Of a stretch of DNA of 64,000 bases, positions 4,518-14,888 are shown one piece after another. Each line of letters starts with the position of its first letter. The first letter of the stretch is position 1. A program made the translations under genes and the position numbers. The DNA comes from Thermotogae bacterium (GTDB lineage Bacteria > Thermotogota > Thermotogae > Mesoaciditogales > Mesoaciditogaceae), in assembly GCA_026988035.1 (NCBI GenBank), contig JALSLY010000023.1, positions 1-64,000 of the forward strand. The letters run 5' to 3'. The notes under the pieces are model-generated. The model made no database searches. It saw only the letters and a program-made list of their open reading frames with translations, and was not told where the DNA came from.

Positions 4518-5576
4518 ATGAACAAAATGAAGAATATGGGAAAAACGGAAAAACTCAAGAAGCATCTTGACAAATTTATTCCTGTTTATGTCCCTATTCT
4601 TATGACAATTGGATTGTTTATCGGGTTACCATTGCACCACCAAATAACAATGAACAAATCCATATTCAGTATACTGAATTTAATCGTTGTACTAACAATG
4701 ATCTATCCAATGATGGTGGGACTAAACATGTCAGAAATGAAAAATTCGTTCAGGATGTGGAAATTATTACTCTTTGGTCTGGTGATGGGTTTAGTTTATC
4801 CTCCAGTTATCATGTATTTGCTATCATTGATCATACCTTTGAACTCCTATCTCGCGTTTGGTTTAATATTAGCCGTAGCCGTTCCATGTTCTTCAATGTC
4901 TATAGCCTACACAGGATTATCTAAAGCCAATACGGAACTCTCAACAATTCTCGTCGCAATATCGTTCATACTTGCCCTTGTAACTGTACCATTTTGGCTT
5001 TCAATCTTTGGAAGCAGTTACCATGTCCCAGCTCCGATGTTTCAAATCTTAAAAACCATAATCATGATAGTAGTGATCCCAATGACTCTCGGTTACGCAA
5101 CAAGAGAATCGATCCTTATCAAGAAAGGAAAGAAGGCATTTTCAAAGGCAAAAGCCTCATTTCCCGTTATGTCTTTACTTGGAATGTACGCAATAATATT
5201 TTTGATATTCATGGAAAAAGCCACAATGATAATTGGAAAATGGCATGCAATATTGATAGCCTTGGCACCACTTTCTCTTTATTATGCAATTACTCTTACG
5301 TTTCTCACAATGATCGATGTGGCATTTAGAGTGCGCTATCGAGACCATATGGCAATAACCTTCACATCTGTTGGGAAAAACGAAGGTACAGCCATGGCAA
5401 TAGCACTTGGCGCAGGAATAGGGTTGGCAGCCGTTCCGGCAGCTATAACACCATTAATTCAAATACCATTTTTGGTGACTTACATGAAACTACATTGGAA
5501 AATAGCGGGAATATTTGCCAAAAAATCATTGGCTTTGGTTAGTGAATATGAACTGCACGAATTGGAAGAATCTTAA
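4518..5576 (+). CDS. ACR3/bile acid:sodium symporter (BASS)-fold transporter
   Basis: A 352-residue integral membrane protein with about ten hydrophobic segments, fitting the BASS/ACR3 fold (usually 320-400 residues). Family-like features are the proline-containing motif AVPCSSMSIAYTGLSKAN in the fourth to fifth segments and TSVGKNEGTAMAIALG near the C-terminus, corresponding to the two unwound crossing helices. ACR3 members export arsenite; other BASS members move organic anions with sodium. There is no arsR or arsenate reductase next to it and the typical ACR3 Cys context is altered (PCSS rather than PCTAM), so the substrate is uncertain. An AGGTGA SD precedes the ATG. It sits alone between a terminator and the convergent comF. 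Confidence 0.75.
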   Translation: MNKMKNMGKTEKLKKHLDKFIPVYVPILMTIGLFIGLPLHHQITMNKSIFSILNLIVVLTMIYPMMVGLNMSEMKNSFRMWKLLLFGLVMGLVYPPVIMYLLSLIIPLNSYLAFGLILAVAVPCSSMSIAYTGLSKANTELSTILVAISFILALVTVPFWLSIFGSSYHVPAPMFQILKTIIMIVVIPMTLGYATRESILIKKGKKAFSKAKASFPVMSLLGMYAIIFLIFMEKATMIIGKWHAILIALAPLSLYYAITLTFLTMIDVAFRVRYRDHMAITFTSVGKNEGTAMAIALGAGIGLAAVPAAITPLIQIPFLVTYMKLHWKIAGIFAKKSLALVSEYELHELEES

Positions 5577-5587
5577 TAAATTGAAAA

Positions 5588-6250
5588 TCAGTTCTCTTTC
5601 ATAGACTTTGCCAATGTGTACACCAAAACTTTAGATGCTCCTTGCGCTTTCAATACCCGAGAGCATTCATTCACAGTTGCTCCGGTGGTAAAAACATCAT
5701 CTATAAGTACAACAACCCCAGATGTCTTGTAAAGCCTTTTACGAATGACTTCATATTTTCCGGCAATTTGCGTTCTTCTTTCCATTTGAGATAGTCCAAC
5801 TTGCCCTTTCGTTTGGCGAGATACTTCAAGTAAACTTAAAGATTTTATGCCAGCCTTTCTGGAAATTTCCAAAGATATTCGTTTTATATGGTCAAATCCC
5901 TTCTCTTTTAGAGAACCAAATGTTATAGGTACGTGTGTAATCACAGCATTATTTGGTGGAGGAAATCGTTCGAAAAGTTCCAGAAAGAGATCAGACAAAA
6001 AATGTGATAGCGATGGACGAGGAATGTATTTGTAAGTTCGAATTATCTTCCCCATTACTCCACTATAAGGTGCACGATAGAAAAATTCATCAAAATACCA
6101 TTTCGCCGTGAAATTTGTTTGTTGAAAAGGCAATGGTGGAATTTTGGTCACGCATTCCAAACAAATCAAATCTTTTCCTATGATCTTCTTTCCACATACA
6201 GGACAGTATTTGGGAAAGAAAACGTTCAAAATTTCGCTTAGCACACACAT
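5588..6250 (-). CDS. comF: ComF family phosphoribosyltransferase-like protein
   Basis: A 220-residue ComF homolog, required for transformation in competent bacteria. It opens with a zinc finger (Cys16, Cys19, Cys30, Cys33) and ends with a PRTase-type PRPP-binding motif VVLIDDVFTTGAT. Overlap with the Memo gene sets the N-terminus: the ATG at 6250 lies 13 nt inside the end of Memo; a GTG at 6244 is an alternative. An upstream open frame to 6373 exists but reads through Memo coding sequence and is not family-like. As the last gene of the pilus operon it supports a DNA-uptake role for the whole set. Confidence 0.88.
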   Translation of the reverse strand: MCVLSEILNVFFPKYCPVCGKKIIGKDLICLECVTKIPPLPFQQTNFTAKWYFDEFFYRAPYSGVMGKIIRTYKYIPRPSLSHFLSDLFLELFERFPPPNNAVITHVPITFGSLKEKGFDHIKRISLEISRKAGIKSLSLLEVSRQTKGQVGLSQMERRTQIAGKYEVIRKRLYKTSGVVVLIDDVFTTGATVNECSRVLKAQGASKVLVYTLAKSMKEN

Positions 6251-7062
6251 GCAGCCATGTATCCAACTTCTTGTTCGTAATCTCTGGAAACTTCTCCGCT
6301 CGTTGAATGAGAGAGAATTTGTGGAGCCCCTATACTTGTATACAACAACGTTGCTACAGCCCCAAAACCACACATTGTAATCTTTTCCTCATATATTACA
6401 CTGTAAAGCCCATCCACATCGTTTTGTGAAATTGCCTCAATGACCAACTTATCTTTCAAAAGTGTCGTTTCATGCTCTTCATAGTGGTTCAAGTCTGTTG
6501 ATGCCACAATCCAAAATCGCCTGTTTTTTAAGATCTCATTTAGTGCACGAGAAAGCTTAAAGGCACTTTCTTTTCTCTGATCACCCAAACATATGGGAAG
6601 TATTTCAATTCCCGTCCCGAGTGTAAACTGAATAAATGGAAGCTGAACTTCAATGGAGTGTTCCATAATGTGACCATCATAATCCAGAGATGCTGCTGGA
6701 AATACTTTAACCAAATCGCTTGCAGCATTTTCATCAACTCTTACACTTCCAAGAGGAGTTTTCCAAGAACCCATTGGCCAAACAGATATAGGACTTCCAG
6801 CTCCTGTGTGATTAGGTCCCAAAATTACAACTAAATCTGGCTTCCCGAATTTTGAAGCTGCCATATATGCATGACATGCCGTCGCCCCCGAGTAAACGTA
6901 GCCCGCATGTGGTACAATAAGACCCACACTTTTTTCAAATCCATCCGGATCTGGAAGCGCTCCTGGACCACGCTTACACAGAAATAATTCTCTTATATAA
7001 TCTCTTAACTCTTCTGGGTCCGCTGGATAAAAACTGCCAGCTGCTACCGGTTTTCTATCCAT
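6238..7062 (-). CDS. Memo family protein (AmmeMemoRadiSam system protein B)
   Basis: A 274-residue Memo/MEMO1 homolog of the class III extradiol dioxygenase fold. Recognisable blocks are RKPVAAGSFYP at the N-terminus, VPHAGYVYSG (His52), LGPNHTG, EHSIEVQLPF and STDLNHYEEHE; the conserved histidines match the metal-site positions of the fold. The biochemical role in bacteria is not established; it is often found with AMMECR1 and a radical SAM protein, neither of which is nearby. It starts 6 nt after the secretin gene stops and overlaps comF, so it is co-transcribed with the pilus genes. Confidence 0.9.
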   Translation of the reverse strand: MDRKPVAAGSFYPADPEELRDYIRELFLCKRGPGALPDPDGFEKSVGLIVPHAGYVYSGATACHAYMAASKFGKPDLVVILGPNHTGAGSPISVWPMGSWKTPLGSVRVDENAASDLVKVFPAASLDYDGHIMEHSIEVQLPFIQFTLGTGIEILPICLGDQRKESAFKLSRALNEILKNRRFWIVASTDLNHYEEHETTLLKDKLVIEAISQNDVDGLYSVIYEEKITMCGFGAVATLLYTSIGAPQILSHSTSGEVSRDYEQEVGYMAACVC

Positions 7063-7068
7063 AAGTTC

Positions 7069-10000
7069 TCATTCCTTTACTATTTTGGCCGTTATAAATA
7101 TATCAAGGTTATCAGTGGAATCTTGAAATGTTGTTGATCTAAAAAATTGTCCTATAAATGGCAAATCTCCAAGAAAAGGTATCTTAGTAACGTTTTCTGA
7201 TCTGGTATGTTTGGTGAGCCCACCTATCATAAGTGTTTGTCCATCTGAAACCACAACTTTCATGGATGCACTACGCGTATTGACAGCCGGAATGCCGTTA
7301 ACAGCATGTCCCCAGTCAGCCTCACTAACTTCTATGGTAATCGTCAAAGAGATTTGCCCATTTGGAAGAACAAGTGGCAGGATCGTAAGTTGGATACCCG
7401 TATCCAAGAATTTTAGCTCTTGCCTTTGCTGATTATTCACGATTGTAGTAACCATATAAGGATATTTCGAACCAACGAGAATATTAGCTGATTCTCCACT
7501 TTGCGTTGTAAGGACTGGAGCAGAAAGAACGGACCCTGATCCTGTCGTTTGCGAAACTTTCATGTTCATCGTCGCATTTGATGAGACAACTTTATCAGCA
7601 ATTCCAGATAAGAATTGTGGGAGATTCGCTACATCAATAAGTTTAAAATGCAAGTTCAGTCCGTTGTTAAATATCAGCTGGGGTGTCATAAAAGTTGTAT
7701 TTATATTTTGAGTCAAACCACTGTTCTTACTAACATCTATAATCTTTGCCTCTATCTCGACATCTTTCCTAGGACTGATTAAAGGCTTCACCATGGCATC
7801 GAGTTTTTCAGCCTTTGATGGAGTTAGCCCGCTTACCACAATTACTCCCGTGTTACTATCAGTGAAAACCTTACCTCCTACAAATTCCGCCATTGATTTT
7901 ATTTTATCCACATTGCCACTTGCCCTATAAATTTTTGTTATCCCAGCAGCATTGGCTTCCACAATAACAAGTGACGTTCCTGTGAATGTTAGATTGTATG
8001 CGTTAGAAATGGCGTACTTAAATTGATCAAGGGGGACGTTTGAAAGTTTAAGTGTTACAATCGGAAGATTGTGAACAGCAAAGATTACATTTCTACCAAA
8101 AGCCTTGTACACACGCTGAATCAATGATGAAAGTGGATATTCTTCAACATCACAACTCACTTTACCATTTTTCACGACAACACTTTGCACTCGTGTTGCA
8201 ACTTGGGTAGGTGTTGATTTAACAATGGGAGTGTGCGCAAGACCACTTGTTTCCATCATAGCTACTATATTCCCAACTTTAAGTTTCGGTCCAGAGATTA
8301 CCACCAAAATCGAAGTTGCACGCGTTGTCGGAGATGATGGGCCGTAAAAGCTAAGTCCCTTTGCCACTACTATGGACTTAACAGTCTCATAGTCATTTGG
8401 GCTTATTCTTACAACTGTTGTCACAGGAGGCGCCTTTTCATGTTCAACCTTTGAGGCTTGCGAACTAATAAAATTTACTGCACCATCAATTTCGTATGAA
8501 TCTTTACCATAAATGACAAACTCTTTTAAATTCTTAAGATACATAACGTTGATCCCGGGATATTTCAACTTCACCAAAGTTTCGAGATCGCTTGCAACAA
8601 TTTCATTGCTCCAAGGAATCTCACGGATATACAAGTTTCTTCTATTTAGCACATTTGAAGCCTTAAGAGTAGCTTTCTGAATGAGTCCTGCTCTCTCAAT
8701 ACTATCGATGAAATTCTTAACACTGGTTGCCGGACCACTTACCACATATTTTAGGGTTTTTGCAGTTGAAGATGCAATTGTGCCTGTTCCAAATAGAGTG
8801 GGATATTCTTTTTTAAGAAGAGCATTAACAGAGTTCAGATCACTTGGAGATATCTCAACTGTGACTGTCATTCGTTGAATGCCAAGAGTTTCCTTTGGAG
8901 CACGTTCTTTTGCAAAATTAGCAGCCATATCCACATCTTGAGCATTCGTGCCATAGAAAAGTATTTGGCCGAACGATGTTAAATATTCGTATTTGACATC
9001 TGGATACATTATGTTGATAATTTTGAACAGATCCCCAACAGAACTTTTATCACTCCAGTTTGCAAAGTTGAAATGAACAGTTCGTGGTTTTGCAATTGTC
9101 AGTGTACTTGCTATCAACTCAACATTTTTTGCAAACTCAGAGACCTGCGTTTTTGGCCCACTCACTATGTACACGACATTTGAAGCTTTATAAGATGGGG
9201 AACCGTATGCTGTAATAGAAGGAAACTTACCCGTGAATTGCAAAAATGCTGGAACATTTTGTATAGGTACACTAAAAGTCAATGTGATTTTAGGACCGTT
9301 TTGTGACAAAATCTCAGCGTACTTTGAAATCACTCTAAAAGCTTTTTCTAAATCTCCCTTGGCTCCTCTCAGCACTATAGTTGAAAAGCTTTTCAAATAC
9401 AGCATTTTTACCGTTGGGTACATAGTTGTGATTAACTTTTGAAGATCTGGTTCAGAACTATTGTCTTTCCATTCAACTGTTTTGAAGTCTTCACTCTCTT
9501 TTATGAAATTCATAAGGCTCTTTATGGTTTTTTGTTGTTCAACAGTTGCTTTTACAATCGCATGGGAACCAATAAAACCTATCACTTTGTTTTCTCCAAA
9601 AAGATTACTGACCAAAGATGAAAAAGTTGAAGATGCGACGTTGGTTGTAGACAAATCGTAAAAACTCACGATGTTGTTGTAAGTTCCAACCCCCAATTTT
9701 CCAAGATCTTTCACAAGAGAGTCTACAGGAGCGATATAGTATGTCCCATCTGGAAGTATGGCATATCCAACACCTGGTGAAGATATTAACACATCGTAGA
9801 AAGCTTCCGCGGGTGTTACGTTGCTAAGAGTAATATTTATCGATTTTTTAGCGATTTCCGGTTCTATGACAAGGTTCCTCTTCAAAATTCGTGCAAGATA
9901 TTTTATGGCAAGTCCAAGAGTAGATCCTTTCTCACCAGAAAAATCTATTGATATTCTCGTAGCAGGCCCGGTTAACGCCAGACTTTGGGATATGCCAAGC

Positions 10001-10344
10001 GTCACGAAACTCACCACAAGACTATGATCTTTCTCGCCAACAAAAGTGCTCACTATAAACGGAAATCTGAAAATTACAACACCACGTGAATCCGTGGAAA
10101 ATATTGTTGCTTTCACAGGTCCCCAGCTCACTTCTCTTGAAACGTTTGCAGAAATCGTCCCATCGAACGTGATTTGAGGAGAATTGCCAAGAACTCCATT
10201 TAAAGTCCAGTTTGGCTTTGAGTCAAAAAAAAGCTTGGCTTGAAATGTCCCTTGTGTTGCAAAAAAAGTTAAATTTTGTAGTGTTGCTCCAAAGATTATA
10301 AAAGGTGCAAATGTCAAAAATAACAAAACAATACTTTTTTTCAT
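7069..10344 (-). CDS. pilQ: Secretin (PilQ/GspD-like), unusually large, with repeated periplasmic modules
   Basis: A 1091-residue outer-membrane secretin, larger than typical PilQ (about 700). Signal peptide at residues 1-19. An STN-type domain (about 128-208) is followed by three tandem modules of about 130-140 residues (near 289-418, 424-553 and 571-698). Each opens with a segment like W-x(10)-LxxLxxxxYPxxxxxYLxxF and closes with a VSGPxxxV motif. A second STN-like domain lies at about 733-793. The secretin core is at about 858-1091, with SGSVLSAP, NILVGSKYPY, the VVVSDGQTLMIGGL motif and the closing PFLGDLPFIGQFFRS. The start at 10344 has AGGTGG upstream; an in-frame start 21 nt earlier lies too close to the SD. 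It should form the exit pore of the pilus/DNA-uptake machine. Confidence 0.92.
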   Translation of the reverse strand: MKKSIVLLFLTFAPFIIFGATLQNLTFFATQGTFQAKLFFDSKPNWTLNGVLGNSPQITFDGTISANVSREVSWGPVKATIFSTDSRGVVIFRFPFIVSTFVGEKDHSLVVSFVTLGISQSLALTGPATRISIDFSGEKGSTLGLAIKYLARILKRNLVIEPEIAKKSINITLSNVTPAEAFYDVLISSPGVGYAILPDGTYYIAPVDSLVKDLGKLGVGTYNNIVSFYDLSTTNVASSTFSSLVSNLFGENKVIGFIGSHAIVKATVEQQKTIKSLMNFIKESEDFKTVEWKDNSSEPDLQKLITTMYPTVKMLYLKSFSTIVLRGAKGDLEKAFRVISKYAEILSQNGPKITLTFSVPIQNVPAFLQFTGKFPSITAYGSPSYKASNVVYIVSGPKTQVSEFAKNVELIASTLTIAKPRTVHFNFANWSDKSSVGDLFKIINIMYPDVKYEYLTSFGQILFYGTNAQDVDMAANFAKERAPKETLGIQRMTVTVEISPSDLNSVNALLKKEYPTLFGTGTIASSTAKTLKYVVSGPATSVKNFIDSIERAGLIQKATLKASNVLNRRNLYIREIPWSNEIVASDLETLVKLKYPGINVMYLKNLKEFVIYGKDSYEIDGAVNFISSQASKVEHEKAPPVTTVVRISPNDYETVKSIVVAKGLSFYGPSSPTTRATSILVVISGPKLKVGNIVAMMETSGLAHTPIVKSTPTQVATRVQSVVVKNGKVSCDVEEYPLSSLIQRVYKAFGRNVIFAVHNLPIVTLKLSNVPLDQFKYAISNAYNLTFTGTSLVIVEANAAGITKIYRASGNVDKIKSMAEFVGGKVFTDSNTGVIVVSGLTPSKAEKLDAMVKPLISPRKDVEIEAKIIDVSKNSGLTQNINTTFMTPQLIFNNGLNLHFKLIDVANLPQFLSGIADKVVSSNATMNMKVSQTTGSGSVLSAPVLTTQSGESANILVGSKYPYMVTTIVNNQQRQELKFLDTGIQLTILPLVLPNGQISLTITIEVSEADWGHAVNGIPAVNTRSASMKVVVSDGQTLMIGGLTKHTRSENVTKIPFLGDLPFIGQFFRSTTFQDSTDNLDIFITAKIVKE

Positions 10345-10361
10345 GCTTCCACCTCCGATGT

Positions 10362-10877
10362 TCACTCGGTGATCATCCCTCGAGAACTAACTATACTTAA
10401 TTTTCCATTAGAAAGATTCATAATTACGGCTCCTTCTAAAGTTGGATTAAAATAAACCACCACGTATTCTTTACCGTCAAACGAAAAACGGGTTTTCCCT
10501 GAATCAAAATCAAAAGTGACGCTTTTACCAGCTAACGACAAAGTCACCATATCCGCATCGTGGCTTTTAACACCACTTATGTATACTAACCTCTTGTTCA
10601 TATTTGCATTAGATAAGGGAGCTTTTAGAAGATTTATAAGATCATTTCGATCCAATTTTACAATAAGAGGAGAAAATGGGTCACGAGTTATTCTCACAGG
10701 TCTTATGTAATCCATTGCGACTTTTTTTGCAAGCACAGATTCGATTTGAAATGTTGGTGGTGTAAATCTTGACGCGTTGCTCCTATGTGCTTTGGGAAAG
10801 AAAAGCACATATCCTATCCAAACAAAAACCGCAACTACAAACAGCAGTAATACTACCACAAGAGTCTTGTTTTTCAC
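10362..10877 (-). CDS. Membrane-anchored pilus assembly protein in the PilP position
   Basis: A 171-residue protein with one N-terminal transmembrane segment (about 5-27) followed by a proline-containing stretch and a small beta-rich C-terminal domain (about 80-171). No clear sequence family is recognised. Its place between the PilO-like gene and the secretin, its single anchor and its DPFSPL segment (like the DPFxP motif before PilP/GspC homology regions) suggest it is the PilP/GspC analogue linking the inner-membrane complex to the secretin. That role is inferred mainly from context. The gap to the PilO-like gene is 4 nt and to the secretin start 17 nt. Confidence 0.65.
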   Translation of the reverse strand: MKNKTLVVVLLLFVVAVFVWIGYVLFFPKAHRSNASRFTPPTFQIESVLAKKVAMDYIRPVRITRDPFSPLIVKLDRNDLINLLKAPLSNANMNKRLVYISGVKSHDADMVTLSLAGKSVTFDFDSGKTRFSFDGKEYVVVYFNPTLEGAVIMNLSNGKLSIVSSRGMITE

Positions 10878-10881
10878 TTAC

Positions 10882-11352
10882 TTAGCCTCCATAAACCTTT
10901 ACCACAAGCTTTTCAAGTATAACGCGTTCGCTAAAACCACTTTTGTACTCAAATCCAACGTATTTAATAGGCATCAAAGACTTCATTGAAAATTCCACAA
11001 CGCTCACATTTGTAAATTCTCCGAGTAGATTCAATAATGTTACTGGATCAACTTGTACTGGCTTGGAAAGCACCAAAGTGTCCCCTGATACTTTGACTTT
11101 TGCAGAAGGAAGAGATGACACAATCTCTTTTTCCAATTTTGACAGCGATATAGAGTGTGATCTTAACTTCTTTGAATATAAAGATAGTTGCTGATCCATC
11201 CTAAAATTTTGGGAATAAAGAGTGTCAAATTTTTGAATAGAACGCGTTATCCTCTCAAGACTTCCAGAAAAGCGTAAAAACATAACAAAATCAAATATCA
11301 CTATCAATACCAAAACGACAAATATCAAGCTCAATGCGAGTTTTCTGCTCAT
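10882..11352 (-). CDS. pilO: PilO-like inner-membrane assembly protein
   Basis: A 156-residue bitopic protein: transmembrane helix at about 8-30, a coiled-coil-prone segment (about 32-80) and a small ferredoxin-like C-terminal domain. It matches PilO in topology and gene order though not in strong sequence motifs, and is shorter than proteobacterial PilO (about 200). It overlaps the PilN-like gene by 4 nt (ATGA type). It would form the PilN-PilO periplasmic scaffold between the PilM ring and the secretin. Confidence 0.7.
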   Translation of the reverse strand: MSRKLALSLIFVVLVLIVIFDFVMFLRFSGSLERITRSIQKFDTLYSQNFRMDQQLSLYSKKLRSHSISLSKLEKEIVSSLPSAKVKVSGDTLVLSKPVQVDPVTLLNLLGEFTNVSVVEFSMKSLMPIKYVGFEYKSGFSERVILEKLVVKVYGG

Positions 11353-11933
11353 GATCCACCTCTTAGAACAGAAACTATGTCATTAGAAGCTTTGTACCAA
11401 TTTGATGCTTGAGATTTCTCTATGTAAACCTTATAACCAAGACTTTCAAAAATCTTTTTCTCAGTAGCAAGAACATTAGAATTCTCTTCGGTTCGGAATT
11501 GAATAAAAAACAAAGGTGTTGCTGACTTTTCCACGTAACGAAGATATGAAAACGAGATTTTTCCACTGATCTCATTAGTCACAAAATTCAGTGCTGTGAG
11601 GATGGAGTGAAATTTTTCAACATTTTCAAGACCATTTTTTATCGAGAAAAGCATGTGAGATTGAGAGTTCAAAAGATTAGTATATCTCTGAATCTGCTCG
11701 TCTACGCGAGACTGAATTTCACTTTTAGGAACACTTGAAAAAGATGAAATACCAGCAATAGAAAGCAACTTGTCATCAGCTGAGAGAGCATTTTGGTACA
11801 AATTGTTGATCACGCTTTCACCAATGAAATAAAAAAGAAGTCCTATGCCTACTACTAAGCCGATCACCATGAAAAATCTCGTCAACTTTATCTTTCTACT
11901 TTTTTTTCGATAAAAATTTAGCCTTAGAATCAC
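11349..11933 (-). CDS. pilN: PilN-like inner-membrane assembly protein
   Basis: A 194-residue bitopic protein. The N-terminus MILRLNFYRKK resembles the short cytoplasmic PilM-binding motif of PilN (I/V-N-L-L/F-P/Y). It is followed by a transmembrane helix (about 18-42), a coiled coil (about 70-115) and a compact C-terminal domain. It overlaps the pilM gene by 38 nt, so the two are translationally linked. The assignment rests on topology, the N-terminal motif and gene order. Confidence 0.78.
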   Translation of the reverse strand: MILRLNFYRKKSRKIKLTRFFMVIGLVVGIGLLFYFIGESVINNLYQNALSADDKLLSIAGISSFSSVPKSEIQSRVDEQIQRYTNLLNSQSHMLFSIKNGLENVEKFHSILTALNFVTNEISGKISFSYLRYVEKSATPLFFIQFRTEENSNVLATEKKIFESLGYKVYIEKSQASNWYKASNDIVSVLRGGS

Positions 11934-12861
11934 CCATCACCCCCCTCATGGCAAGACTGTACGCATTCAGAGGTACATCTATCTTAAGATCAACAACTTC
12001 AGAATAAGAAAATGCCTTGTCAGCTATCTGGAGTTCTGCCAAGATGTTACACCACAGATCACTGTACTCTTCAAGCTCAGATACACAAATCACTGAATCC
12101 ACTTTTTCATTCAACATAGAAAACCTTGAAAGCATCATTTTAGAAAGCTTTTGCAAGCTATCAGATAACTCTCTATAATGCGATTTTATACCATCACTAT
12201 TTGTACTATCAGTTATGCTTTCGGTTCCTCCTAAAATGCTATCAACACCTACAAGCCTTCCATCTTTAAAAAATTCCACAAAAGTTGAGGAGATGTCTTC
12301 AAAAACGACAAACGTTAGTCCCTTTGATAAACGATTTTCAAGTAGATAATTGAATTTGAAATATCCTGCATCAAGAATGTCAGGAAACGGAAGACCTGAT
12401 TTGAAAAACAAGCTGTTGAATTTTGATATATCTTCGTTTCTCACCACAAAAGCTGAAATTACCAAATTAGAGCTATTCATACTCGTGTTTACATCCACTT
12501 CAACCGTGATCTCTTCTGGTGAAATAGAAAGCTCTTTTACGATCTGAAATTTTGCCGCATTAAGAACCTGCTGCATTGGCATATTTGGAATTTCAATTTG
12601 TCTAAACAATATTCTATCGGGGAAAAGAGCGGTAGAGATCACATCTTCTATGTCTATCTTCAAGACAGTTCCCACATTGCCTAAAGTGATTATGACCTCA
12701 TTTTCATTTTCCAAAGTTTCACCATCAAAAGCTCTTTTCTTGTATGGAATGGACACCTTAGAAACAACTTCTATCTTTTTTCCGCTTTTTCTAAGTTTTA
12801 CACCATCTATTTTATATCTTCCAATGTTCAATCCAACATAAAAGTTAGTAAACAACCCCAT
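11896..12861 (-). CDS. pilM: PilM-like actin-fold ATPase
   Basis: A 321-residue protein of the PilM/GspL cytoplasmic actin-like family (usual length about 350). It begins with a beta strand VGLNIGRYKIDGVKL that matches the phosphate-1 strand of PilM (VGIDIGSSSIKAVEL). Other typical segments are the mid-protein PNMPMQQVLNAAKFQIVKELS and a C-terminal PLNAYSLAMRGV. Several phosphate-loop residues differ from the family consensus, so nucleotide binding is not assured. It sits 1 nt after the pseudopilin gene and overlaps pilN. Role: cytoplasmic ring recruiting PilN and, elsewhere, the motor ATPase, which is not encoded in this window. Confidence 0.82.
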   Translation of the reverse strand: MGLFTNFYVGLNIGRYKIDGVKLRKSGKKIEVVSKVSIPYKKRAFDGETLENENEVIITLGNVGTVLKIDIEDVISTALFPDRILFRQIEIPNMPMQQVLNAAKFQIVKELSISPEEITVEVDVNTSMNSSNLVISAFVVRNEDISKFNSLFFKSGLPFPDILDAGYFKFNYLLENRLSKGLTFVVFEDISSTFVEFFKDGRLVGVDSILGGTESITDSTNSDGIKSHYRELSDSLQKLSKMMLSRFSMLNEKVDSVICVSELEEYSDLWCNILAELQIADKAFSYSEVVDLKIDVPLNAYSLAMRGVMGDSKAKFLSKKK

Positions 12862-12862
12862 T

Positions 12863-13273
12863 TTACCACTTCCAAGTCAAATTTATTTTTCCGATCACAG
12901 GTGTAATGCTGATCTTGGCAATAAAAGAGTTGCCAACAAAAAATCTTAAAGTGCCAGAAATATATGGTACACCATTTGAAAAGGCTAAATATTTGTTTCC
13001 CTCAATCCGAACAAAATCAATGGAACTCGTTCTAACAATATTTTTATCTGATACAACTTCTACGCTTCTTTTCGAAATGCGGACATCCACCCGATTATTT
13101 CTCAAAGTTGATAAAAGTCGAGCATATCTTATTGAACTTCTGATTTTGTTTATCTCCGCAATTGATCCAACACGCTCTATCCATACTTTTGAATTTGGAA
13201 GTATAAACGATAAAATCAAAAAAACAATTGTCAAATAAACTAAAAGTTCTACAAATGTGCTGCCTTCTTCCAT
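12863..13273 (-). CDS. Type IV pilin-like prepilin (pseudopilin, GspH/FimT-like)
   Basis: A 136-residue prepilin. The class III leader is very short, MEEG, followed by STFVELLVYLTIVFLIL, giving a prepilin-peptidase cleavage site after Gly4 and the conserved Glu at mature position 5, then a hydrophobic helix. The globular part is beta-rich, as in GspH/FimT minor pilins. It follows the gspF/pilC gene by 2 nt and precedes pilM. It is probably a minor pilin of the uptake pilus. A major pilin and a prepilin peptidase are not in the window. Confidence 0.82.
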   Translation of the reverse strand: MEEGSTFVELLVYLTIVFLILSFILPNSKVWIERVGSIAEINKIRSSIRYARLLSTLRNNRVDVRISKRSVEVVSDKNIVRTSSIDFVRIEGNKYLAFSNGVPYISGTLRFFVGNSFIAKISITPVIGKINLTWKW

Positions 13274-13275
13274 TC

Positions 13276-14475
13276 TTAAAAGTGTTGGCCTACTCCCTGC
13301 TCAAGACTAAACATCGTTTGATAAAGGCTGAAAGCTAAAAAGCCAACAAAAAGTCCTATAATCCCAATCATGGCAGGTTCAACCATGGAGACGATTTGTT
13401 TCAGCTTAACGGACACTTCTTGATCATAAAATTCTGCGACTTTATTAAGCATCTCGTCAACTCTCCCAGTTTCTTCGCCAGTTCCTACCATTTCGACAAG
13501 TAGTTGAGGGAAATAATTTGATTTTTGCATAGCTTCTTTAAGAGTTCCACCGTTTTTAAGCGTATCGATCATCAAAGGAACTGAGCTTATTAATTTATGG
13601 CTTGAAGTCGCATTAGCAGCCATTTCAACTGCATTTGTGATCGACACACCACTGGATATCAAAGTTGCGAGAGTTTTGCTAAAACTCGAAGAGTTTTCCA
13701 AACGTCTAAGTTTTTTTATTGGGGGAAAAAGGTTCAAAACAAAACTTTTTACCATAACGCCGTACGGTGTGCGCATGAAAAGTGCTCCACCAATGAAAGC
13801 GGAAGCCAGAAACACAACAACAGTTAACCAATTATGAGCAATGTAATCATTGGTATTTATAAGAACAGCAACAACACCACCTGGTTTCATGTTTCCAAAT
13901 GCTTTAAAAAGATTCGGAAGTATGAATAAACTTATAACCATTAATATCAATATGGCGAATATAGAAACAAAAACAGGGTAAGCCATAGCCGAACGAATTT
14001 CATCTCTCAACTTTTTTGAATCCTCATAAAACTTTGAAAGCTTTGATAGAGATTCATCAAGCACTCCACCACTTTCTCCAGCCTGCATAAGATTAGTCAG
14101 AACAGGATCAAATGCCCCTGCCTGCTCGAAAGCCTCAGAAAGCGACATCCCACCATCAATGGAAACCACAAGTTCGGATATAATTTTTCTAAAGGACTTG
14201 CTGAAAGCTTCTTGTCTTGATAAAAGATTGAGCGCGTTTTTTATTCGAACTCCCGCGTTTATCATGGTAGAAAACTGACGAGTAAATAATACTAAGTCTG
14301 AAAGCTTTGCACGAAGTTTCATGCTCCTTTTTTTCTTTGAAACAGTCTGAACATTTAACACCACATATCCTTCTTGAGAAAGCTTGTTGACGAGTCCTAC
14401 TTCACTTTCCGCATCCAATTTCCCTTTAACAATTTTCCCGTTAGGGTTTACAGCATCAAACATATAGGTAGGCAT
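13276..14475 (-). CDS. pilC: Type II secretion/type IV pilus platform protein (GspF/PilC)
   Basis: A 399-residue polytopic membrane platform protein with the two repeated GspF domains (about 65-190 and 265-390). Each carries the family motif, seen as FTRQFSTMINAGVRI and SFSKTLATLISSGVSI, and three strong membrane segments. N-terminal MPTYMFDAVNPNGKIVKGKL is typical. The ATG at 14475 is chosen because GGGGGTGG lies 6 nt upstream; earlier in-frame codons run into the tRNA terminator. It is the first gene of the nine-gene pilus operon and links the assembly ATPase to pilin insertion. Confidence 0.93.
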   Translation of the reverse strand: MPTYMFDAVNPNGKIVKGKLDAESEVGLVNKLSQEGYVVLNVQTVSKKKRSMKLRAKLSDLVLFTRQFSTMINAGVRIKNALNLLSRQEAFSKSFRKIISELVVSIDGGMSLSEAFEQAGAFDPVLTNLMQAGESGGVLDESLSKLSKFYEDSKKLRDEIRSAMAYPVFVSIFAILILMVISLFILPNLFKAFGNMKPGGVVAVLINTNDYIAHNWLTVVVFLASAFIGGALFMRTPYGVMVKSFVLNLFPPIKKLRRLENSSSFSKTLATLISSGVSITNAVEMAANATSSHKLISSVPLMIDTLKNGGTLKEAMQKSNYFPQLLVEMVGTGEETGRVDEMLNKVAEFYDQEVSVKLKQIVSMVEPAMIGIIGLFVGFLAFSLYQTMFSLEQGVGQHF

Positions 14476-14503
14476 GGTCATCCACCCCCATTCATTGATA
14501 AAG

Positions 14504-14568: not shown

Positions 14569-14644
14569 TGGTGCCGAGGCCTGGAGTTGAACCAGGGACA
14601 CGAGGATTTTCAGTCCACTGCTCTACCACCTGAGCTACCTCGGC
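14569..14644 (-). tRNA. tRNA-Phe (GAA)
   Basis: 76 nt including an encoded CCA. Acceptor GCCGAGG pairs with CCTCGGC, the anticodon loop reads CTGAAAA with GAA, and the T-arm GGTTCAA is present. Last of the four-tRNA transcript; only 2 nt separate it from tRNA-Asp. Confidence 0.96.
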
Positions 14645-14646
14645 GT

Positions 14647-14723
14647 TGGCGGGGACGACGAGGCTCGAACTCGCGACCACCGGTGTGACAGACCGGCATG
14701 CTAACCAGCTGCACCACGTCCCC
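14647..14723 (-). tRNA. tRNA-Asp (GTC)
   Basis: 77 nt with encoded CCA. Acceptor GGGGACG pairs with CGTCCCC, the anticodon loop is CTGTCAC, and the T-arm GAGTTCGAG is present. Confidence 0.96.
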
Positions 14724-14731
14724 ACTCCACG

Positions 14732-14806
14732 TGGTGGGAACGGCAGGGCTTGAACCTGCGACCTCCTGCTTGTAAGGCAGGCGCTCTCCCGCTGAGCTAC
14801 GTCCCC
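14732..14806 (-). tRNA. tRNA-Val (TAC)
   Basis: 75 nt with encoded CCA. Acceptor GGGGACG pairs with CGTTCCC (one G-T pair), the anticodon loop is CTTACAA, and the T-arm AGGTTCAAG is present. Confidence 0.96.
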
Positions 14807-14812
14807 AAACCT

Positions 14813-14888
14813 TGGCGCCCTCATGGGGATTCGAACCCCAGCCGCCGGCGTGAAAGGCCGGTGTCCTAGACCACTAGACGATGAGGGC
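14813..14888 (-). tRNA. tRNA-Glu (TTC)
   Basis: 76 nt with encoded CCA. Acceptor GCCCTCA pairs with TGAGGGC, the anticodon loop is CTTTCAC, and the T-arm GGGTTCGAAT is present. First tRNA of the cluster. Confidence 0.96.

Follow-up and report, generated by a model that had tools for sequence, protein, structure and literature searches.

What is the additional mass of an unusually large secretin made of, and might it lengthen the channel through the periplasm? The window analyzed here—a stretch of 64,000 nucleotides from a Thermotogae bacterium of the Mesoaciditogaceae (contig JALSLY010000023.1, positions 1 to 64,000)—raises this question with a secretin of 1091 residues. According to PMC5487896, the toga creates a large periplasm at one end or both ends of the rods. 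For Thermus PilQ, the domains N1–N5 are reported as rings of β-α-β-β-α fold, with which the complex is said to bridge most of a wide periplasm (PMC5745081), and its channel is given as approximately 35 nm long (PMC4463427). As outlined below, the window secretin is probably the outer-membrane, PilQ-like secretin of a type IV pilus or DNA-uptake machine, with a channel lengthened by added N1-type rings.

A PilQ-like secretin at the end of a pilus-type operon

The secretin gene (Table 1) starts with ATG, and a ribosome-binding-like GGAGGTGG sits 4 nt 5′ of this codon. The C-terminal end of the protein matches the Pfam secretin domain with 149.1 bits against a cut-off of 27.5 bits. The best of the nine models listed is TIGR02515 (PilQ) with 143.6 bits (E 8.5e-42, curated cut-off 284.35 bits), and the GspD model reaches 127.5 bits (E 5.5e-37, cut-off 351 bits). 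Both models stay well under their curated cut-offs and, hence, sequence alone cannot separate PilQ from GspD. On these matches, we call the window secretin PilQ-like and do not file it as a member of TIGR02515.

The operon runs in the order pilC–pilin–pilM–N–O–P–secretin with the secretin as its last gene. Order and sizes fit a pilMNOPQ operon with pilC, in which PilN, PilO, and PilP are assigned by position alone. For the pilC gene, the best NCBIfam model is GspF. Elsewhere in the genome, there are two PF00437 ATPases, one ComEC-type protein, and two N_methyl pilin matches. The nearest named locus, L034 from a Mesoaciditogaceae MAG, encodes a secretin of 78% identity over the protein. An artefact of the MAG is ruled out, as the open frame and the repeats are kept in nine genomes of the Mesoaciditogaceae.

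The neighborhood of the operon bears further genes. Directly downstream of the secretin lies a Memo-family gene (6238–7062, minus strand; PF01875, E 7.6e-70), and a Memo-like ORF is present in 47 of the 52 loci read (L035–L086). Beyond it, a gene with a double zinc ribbon and a phosphoribosyltransferase domain (5588–6373, minus strand), which we take to be ComF-like, might mark a link to competence. Four tRNA genes (Phe, Asp, Val, and Glu) are found just upstream of the pilC operon (14569–14888, minus strand).

Table 1. The secretin gene, the domains of its product, and the operon genes, in window coordinates.
Feature	Position	Strand	Basis
Secretin gene, PilQ-like, 1091 aa	7069..10344	-	Secretin domain and PilQ model match
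Signal peptide, residues 1–19	10288..10344	-	By eye, from sequence
β-rich N-terminal region, residues 20–118	9991..10287	-	No Pfam or PDB match
First N0/STN-like domain, residues 125–205	9730..9972	-	type_II_gspD_N0, LspD N0
N1-like segment after first N0, residues 222–284	9493..9681	-	Position; no profile match
Unit R1a, N1/Secretin_N-like, residues 285–347	9304..9492	-	hhalign, Secretin_N in homologues
Unit R1b, residues 350–420	9085..9297	-	hhalign
Unit R2a, residues 421–488	8881..9084	-	AlphaFold2 β-α-β-β-α, hhalign
Unit R2b, residues 489–565	8650..8880	-	AlphaFold2 β-α-β-β-α, hhalign
Unit R3a, residues 570–640	8425..8637	-	hhalign
Unit R3b, residues 641–708	8221..8424	-	hhalign
Second N0/STN-like domain, residues 722–798	7951..8181	-	PilQ/HofQ N0 chains, E 0.02–0.26
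Membrane-proximal N1-like domain (N1′), residues 800–868	7741..7947	-	β-α-β-β-α order in low-confidence model; position
Secretin domain PF00263, residues 932–1090	7075..7551	-	E 1.2e-43
PilP-position gene, 171 aa	10362..10877	-	Position
PilO-position gene, 156 aa	10882..11352	-	Position
PilN-position gene, 194 aa	11349..11933	-	Position
PilM-like gene, 321 aa	11896..12861	-	TIGR01175 pilM, E 0.0098, below cut-off
Pilin-like gene	12863..13273	-	NF040982 ComGD, E 8.8e-7, below cut-off
pilC/T2SSF gene	13276..14478	-	PF00482, E 2.9e-58

An array in front of an ordinary secretin

The β-rich region behind the signal peptide occupies the place that the AMIN domains hold in PilQ. It is followed by the first of two STN-like domains that a preliminary description of this DNA had proposed. 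For both, the support is coherent, albeit weak by sequence: the Pfam model type_II_gspD_N0 matches the first in eight of nine homologues (best E 4e-5, under the 27-bit cut-off), with the N0 of the T2SS secretin LspD as the closest PDB match (E 0.0019), and for the second, five of six PDB rows are PilQ/HofQ chains. N0′ and N1′ together with the secretin domain make the C-terminal part a complete ordinary secretin. Hence, the added part is the array of repeats plus a second N0–N1 set, placed in front of this ordinary secretin.

The array consists of three repeats of approximately 140 residues (285–420, 421–569, and 570–708). Profiles built from nine homologues—one per genome handle—were compared with hhalign, with 20 column shuffles as control. 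The first halves match each other with E-values of 1.1e-16 (R1a–R2a), 1.4e-13 (R2a–R3a), and 1.2e-9 (R1a–R3a), the second halves with 1.5e-11 (R2b–R3b), 2.7e-6 (R1b–R2b), and 1e-3 (R1b–R3b), and all six scores exceed all 20 shuffles. W10, Y27, P28, Y34, L35, G117, and P118 are invariant in a six-row module alignment. The repeats of 130 to 140 residues noticed beforehand are thus real, and of their proposed sequence marks, the opening W..YP..YL and, in the close, the GP hold without exception. Their number needs rephrasing: each of the three modules is a pair of β-α-β-β-α units and, hence, six domains are added rather than three.

The a and b halves are not directly recognizable as copies of each other, and only the Kosmotogaceae unit described below connects them; their direct hhalign comparison gives E 0.009 over 18 columns only, a value reached by none of 30 shuffles. 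N1 (222–284) and N1′ (800–868) give no hhalign profile match that would mark them as copies of array units. The modules of the window secretin are mutually 18 to 31% identical, which rules out their recent origin.

An ordinary fold

For module R2, AlphaFold2 was run on an alignment of the three window modules and three modules of L034. The model (mean pLDDT 78.8, pTM 0.56) shows two units, one of E4–9, H13–26, E31–35, E40–45, and H48–65 and the other of E71–78, H80–93, E98–105, E110–118, and H119–131, with an uncertain a–b orientation. Both units bear the β-α-β-β-α fold of N1 (PF03958). A full-length model of the window secretin from two sequences (pLDDT 36.4) is useless for shape, and its strand–helix order repeats the same pattern.

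The highest TM-score in the Foldseek list for R2 belongs to the N-domains of the secretin XcpQ (4ec5, TMq 0.58, 137 columns), and the best E-values belong to KH1–KH2 of FMRP and PCBP2 at a TM-score of 0.34 to 0.35. In VIA-align, the first unit is matched by a KH domain (Z 9.3), whereas PII/ferredoxin-like rows lead for the second (Z up to 9.8)—middling levels that may reflect no more than a common arrangement. The leading KH E-values and PII/ferredoxin-like rows indicate that the fold matches are partly generic.

Among PDB sequences, Deinococcus PilQ DR_0774 matches the module profile best, with a stretch of its N domains (E 0.008). Pfam Secretin_N matches R1a in five of nine homologues (best E 2.5e-4, below cut-off) and gives no match in the window protein itself; the Pfam KH model matches eight of nine homologues. 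Both giant secretins of the Kosmotogaceae that were scanned match Secretin_N above its curated cut-off (34.9 and 57.6 vs. 28.2 bits). The unit profile of the Kosmotogaceae in turn matches the first halves of the window modules with E 5.7e-7 over 53 columns and the second halves with E 8.4e-5 over 48 columns, and none of 30 shuffles reaches either value. Searches with profile A7 against the PDB returned designed, PII-like, KH-like, or other chains and no secretins, and A1 found no relative in viral contigs.

The six array units hence belong to the N1 (Secretin_N) type and form three a–b pairs. A prediction of the module structure had been proposed for deciding between N1 domains and a new fold, and the R2 model comes down on the side of two N1-type units. 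A new fold finds no support and is rejected given this model, the likeness to XcpQ and KH domains, and the Secretin_N matches. The fold of the units is ordinary, and their number is not.

Copy number within and beyond the Mesoaciditogaceae

The module profile finds three copies in six of the nine Mesoaciditogaceae homologues and two in the remaining three, which form genus g2 (G006, G008, and G009), the sister to the other genomes of the family. In the alignment, g2 lacks window residues ~487 to 640—exactly one module period of approximately 150 residues. Its second module is a hybrid: the first half is 37 to 40% identical to R2 vs. 25 to 28% to R3, and the second half 34 to 39% identical to R3 vs. 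21 to 24% to R2. A sister genus without exactly one module period shows that the copy number is evolvable. A tenth genome of the family, G003, gives no match to the secretin domain (PF00263), although it is 96% complete.

Comparing module numbers across the phylum, as the preliminary description had suggested, reveals a far wider range. A search for PF00263 covered 103 Thermotogota genomes and gave matches in 96; the following lengths come from the matches listed. Large-secretin open frames of the Mesoaciditogaceae span 944 to 1108 aa (nine genomes). The large secretins of family f2 measure approximately 1183 to 1243 aa, those of f10 1273 to 1620 aa, and those of f7 660 to 910 aa, with possibly cut short frames left aside. 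Relatives in f11, probably the Thermotoga family, have approximately 1005 to 1292 aa and show unit matches at a median spacing of 63 to 74 residues. In f9, by inference the Kosmotogaceae, six genomes among the matches listed encode secretins of 2635, 3900, 3900, 3908, 3921, and 4575 aa; the remaining f9 frames are shorter, and those of G043, G047, and G055 start at the edge of a contig or of the sequence analyzed. The f9 unit profile detects 24 units in the protein of 2635 aa, 39 to 40 in each of the four of 3900 to 3921 aa, and 50 at a median spacing of 66 in that of 4575 aa.

These giant secretins are encoded in the same operon type as that of the window. In 13 loci, the genes separating the secretin from the PilM-like gene encode approximately 100 to 215 aa (ATG-trimmed) for secretins of ~700 to 4575 aa; G033 marks an exception, whose secretin lies outside such an operon. 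The copy number of units differs by genus and the genes at the PilN, PilO, and PilP positions are not lengthened, a pattern consistent with a variable spacer within the channel. The reading of the preliminary description is thus supported in part: the extra mass consists of periplasmic N-domain repeats, in unusual number and within a type IV pilus-type operon.

Unit counts outside the Mesoaciditogaceae and Kosmotogaceae vary with the profile used. An iterated Ra profile (E ≤ 0.5) gives 3 to 10 matches in most proteins, iteration of the Ra seed over 51 proteins reduced it to 31 columns with fewer matches, and the Kosmotogaceae profile gives 0 to 6 in secretins outside these two families. For f7, the iterated Ra profile finds 5, 5, 0, and 1 matches in four proteins, the seed iterated over 51 proteins none in eight of eight, and the Kosmotogaceae profile one in one of eight; as these counts differ by profile, we do not claim an absence of units in f7. 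The a–b pairs were not recognized in the f11 relatives by the unit profile searches. In a drift control, the iterated Ra profile matched nothing in five shuffled and one reversed set vs. 96 real matches outside the family. Among other ORFs, it gave 11 matches at E < 0.01, of which ten fall in the broken L040 secretin gene and one in L066. At E < 0.1, the Kosmotogaceae profile gave five reversed matches and one shuffled match, 26 matches in 12 other ORFs—17 of these in three L040 ORFs—and none in the window protein itself.

This broken gene (L040 of G021, f9; 4569–12427) consists of a 1374-aa frame with the N-terminal part and units, approximately 1 kb, and a 977-aa frame. The segment 8522–9541 carries the unit-coding sense on the opposite strand and is flanked by an identical stretch of 245 nt (8280–8524 and 9507–9751), which reflects either an inversion in the repeat array or an assembly error.

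Arrays of this kind might also grow neutrally, by tandem duplication of a tolerated domain and unlinked to envelope width. The one-module difference between sister genera would agree with such growth, as would the near-identical, recent duplications in the protein of 4575 aa (L067, G044). Exact repeats of at least 20 aa occur there at an offset of 268 residues and, with residues 1486 and 2361, at one of 875, and show that the array is still changing. However, the median identity between units within one giant protein is 19 to 20% and the arrays are kept open, so that most units are old and kept, and lengths are steady within groups (944–949, 1091–1108, and 3900–3921 aa). We regard growth without a link to the envelope as unlikely.

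A proposed channel of adjustable length

By analogy with Thermus PilQ, we infer one ring per domain, a longer channel, and a match of this channel to the periplasm of the toga. Each added N1-type domain would most likely contribute one more ring to the oligomer, so that the channel would reach further into the wide periplasm. Through the lengthened channel, the pilus or DNA could be passed on between the PilMNOP platform and the outer-membrane pore. The array grows or shrinks in whole steps through in-register gain or loss of repeats, and the secretin would serve as an adjustable spacer of the machine. The data suggest that the number of copies determines how far the channel extends across the periplasm. 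With our own figure of 3 to 5 nm per ring, simple extrapolation would give roughly 30 to 50 nm for the ~10 N-type domains of the window secretin and >150 nm for the relative of 4575 aa.

The N1-like units might instead not form one ring each, but surround the channel as a chain, flexible or folded back, that tethers the secretin to peptidoglycan or toga proteins and does not lengthen the channel. Many nonring proteins share KH-like and ferredoxin-like folds, the divergent a and b halves could mean that only one half per pair sits in a ring, and the fifty stacked rings implied by the 4575-aa relative would be extreme. On the contrary, all N1-type domains of Thermus PilQ are described as sitting in rings (PMC5745081), and the array is flanked by N0–N1 and N0′–N1′, which are themselves ring-type domains. 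We consider such a tethering chain rather improbable and prefer the added rings.

Tentatively, the reading of added rings can be extended to the phylum: Thermotogota secretins might be adjustable conduits, whose rings are tandemly added or removed—few or none recognized in f7, six in the window secretin, and approximately 50 in the 4575-aa protein—giving channels whose lengths range from tens of nm to perhaps >100 nm and track the stand-off of the toga, with an inner-membrane platform of constant size. If the array units are rings, the Thermotogota hold a natural series of one machine, with a channel length defined by copy number and up to several times longer. The matching of trans-envelope machines to the width of the periplasm would then become a comparison of species and of single-module deletions, and the passage of the pilus across the wide space beneath the toga would be explained.

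Relation to known secretins

Multi-ring PilQ is already known from Thermus. Thermus thermophilus PilQ (757 aa) is likewise a pilus/DNA-uptake secretin with extra β-α-β-β-α N domains, forming six N rings, N0–N5 (PMC5745081). It bears one N0 and five N1-type rings, whereas the window secretin bears two N0-like domains, six units in a–b pairs, and flanking segments at the N1 positions; unlike in Thermus PilQ, the number of units in its relatives runs from four to approximately fifty. PilQ of Deinococcus radiodurans (DR_0774, 8co1, 740 aa) is linked by the PDB sequence match named above, but is shorter and matches weakly over one stretch only. Within the phylum, an annotated PilQ is likewise known from Thermotoga, TM0088 (PMC5637354). 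Keyword searches of open-licence PMC papers yielded no account of array-bearing or giant secretins in Thermotogota.

GspD/XcpQ of the T2SS share the plan of N domains ending in a secretin domain—with XcpQ giving the best TM-score to the module—but have far fewer N domains and a different operon. That the window protein is a GspD-like secretin of type II secretion, whose long array serves protein export, is improbable: the GspD model, the LspD-like first N0, and the GspF match of the pilC gene would speak for it, but the PilQ model fits best, the second N0 matches PilQ/HofQ chains, the operon holds a PilM-like gene, the genome encodes a ComEC-type protein, and the pilQ entry tabulated for Thermotoga is TM0088 (PMC5637354).

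Two further, short secretins (386 and 394 aa; L066, 3068–5622, and L065) are encoded elsewhere in the genome of the window. Adjoining the 386-aa secretin is a secreted-looking protein of 468 aa, which has no Pfam match and, by eye, an STN-like start.
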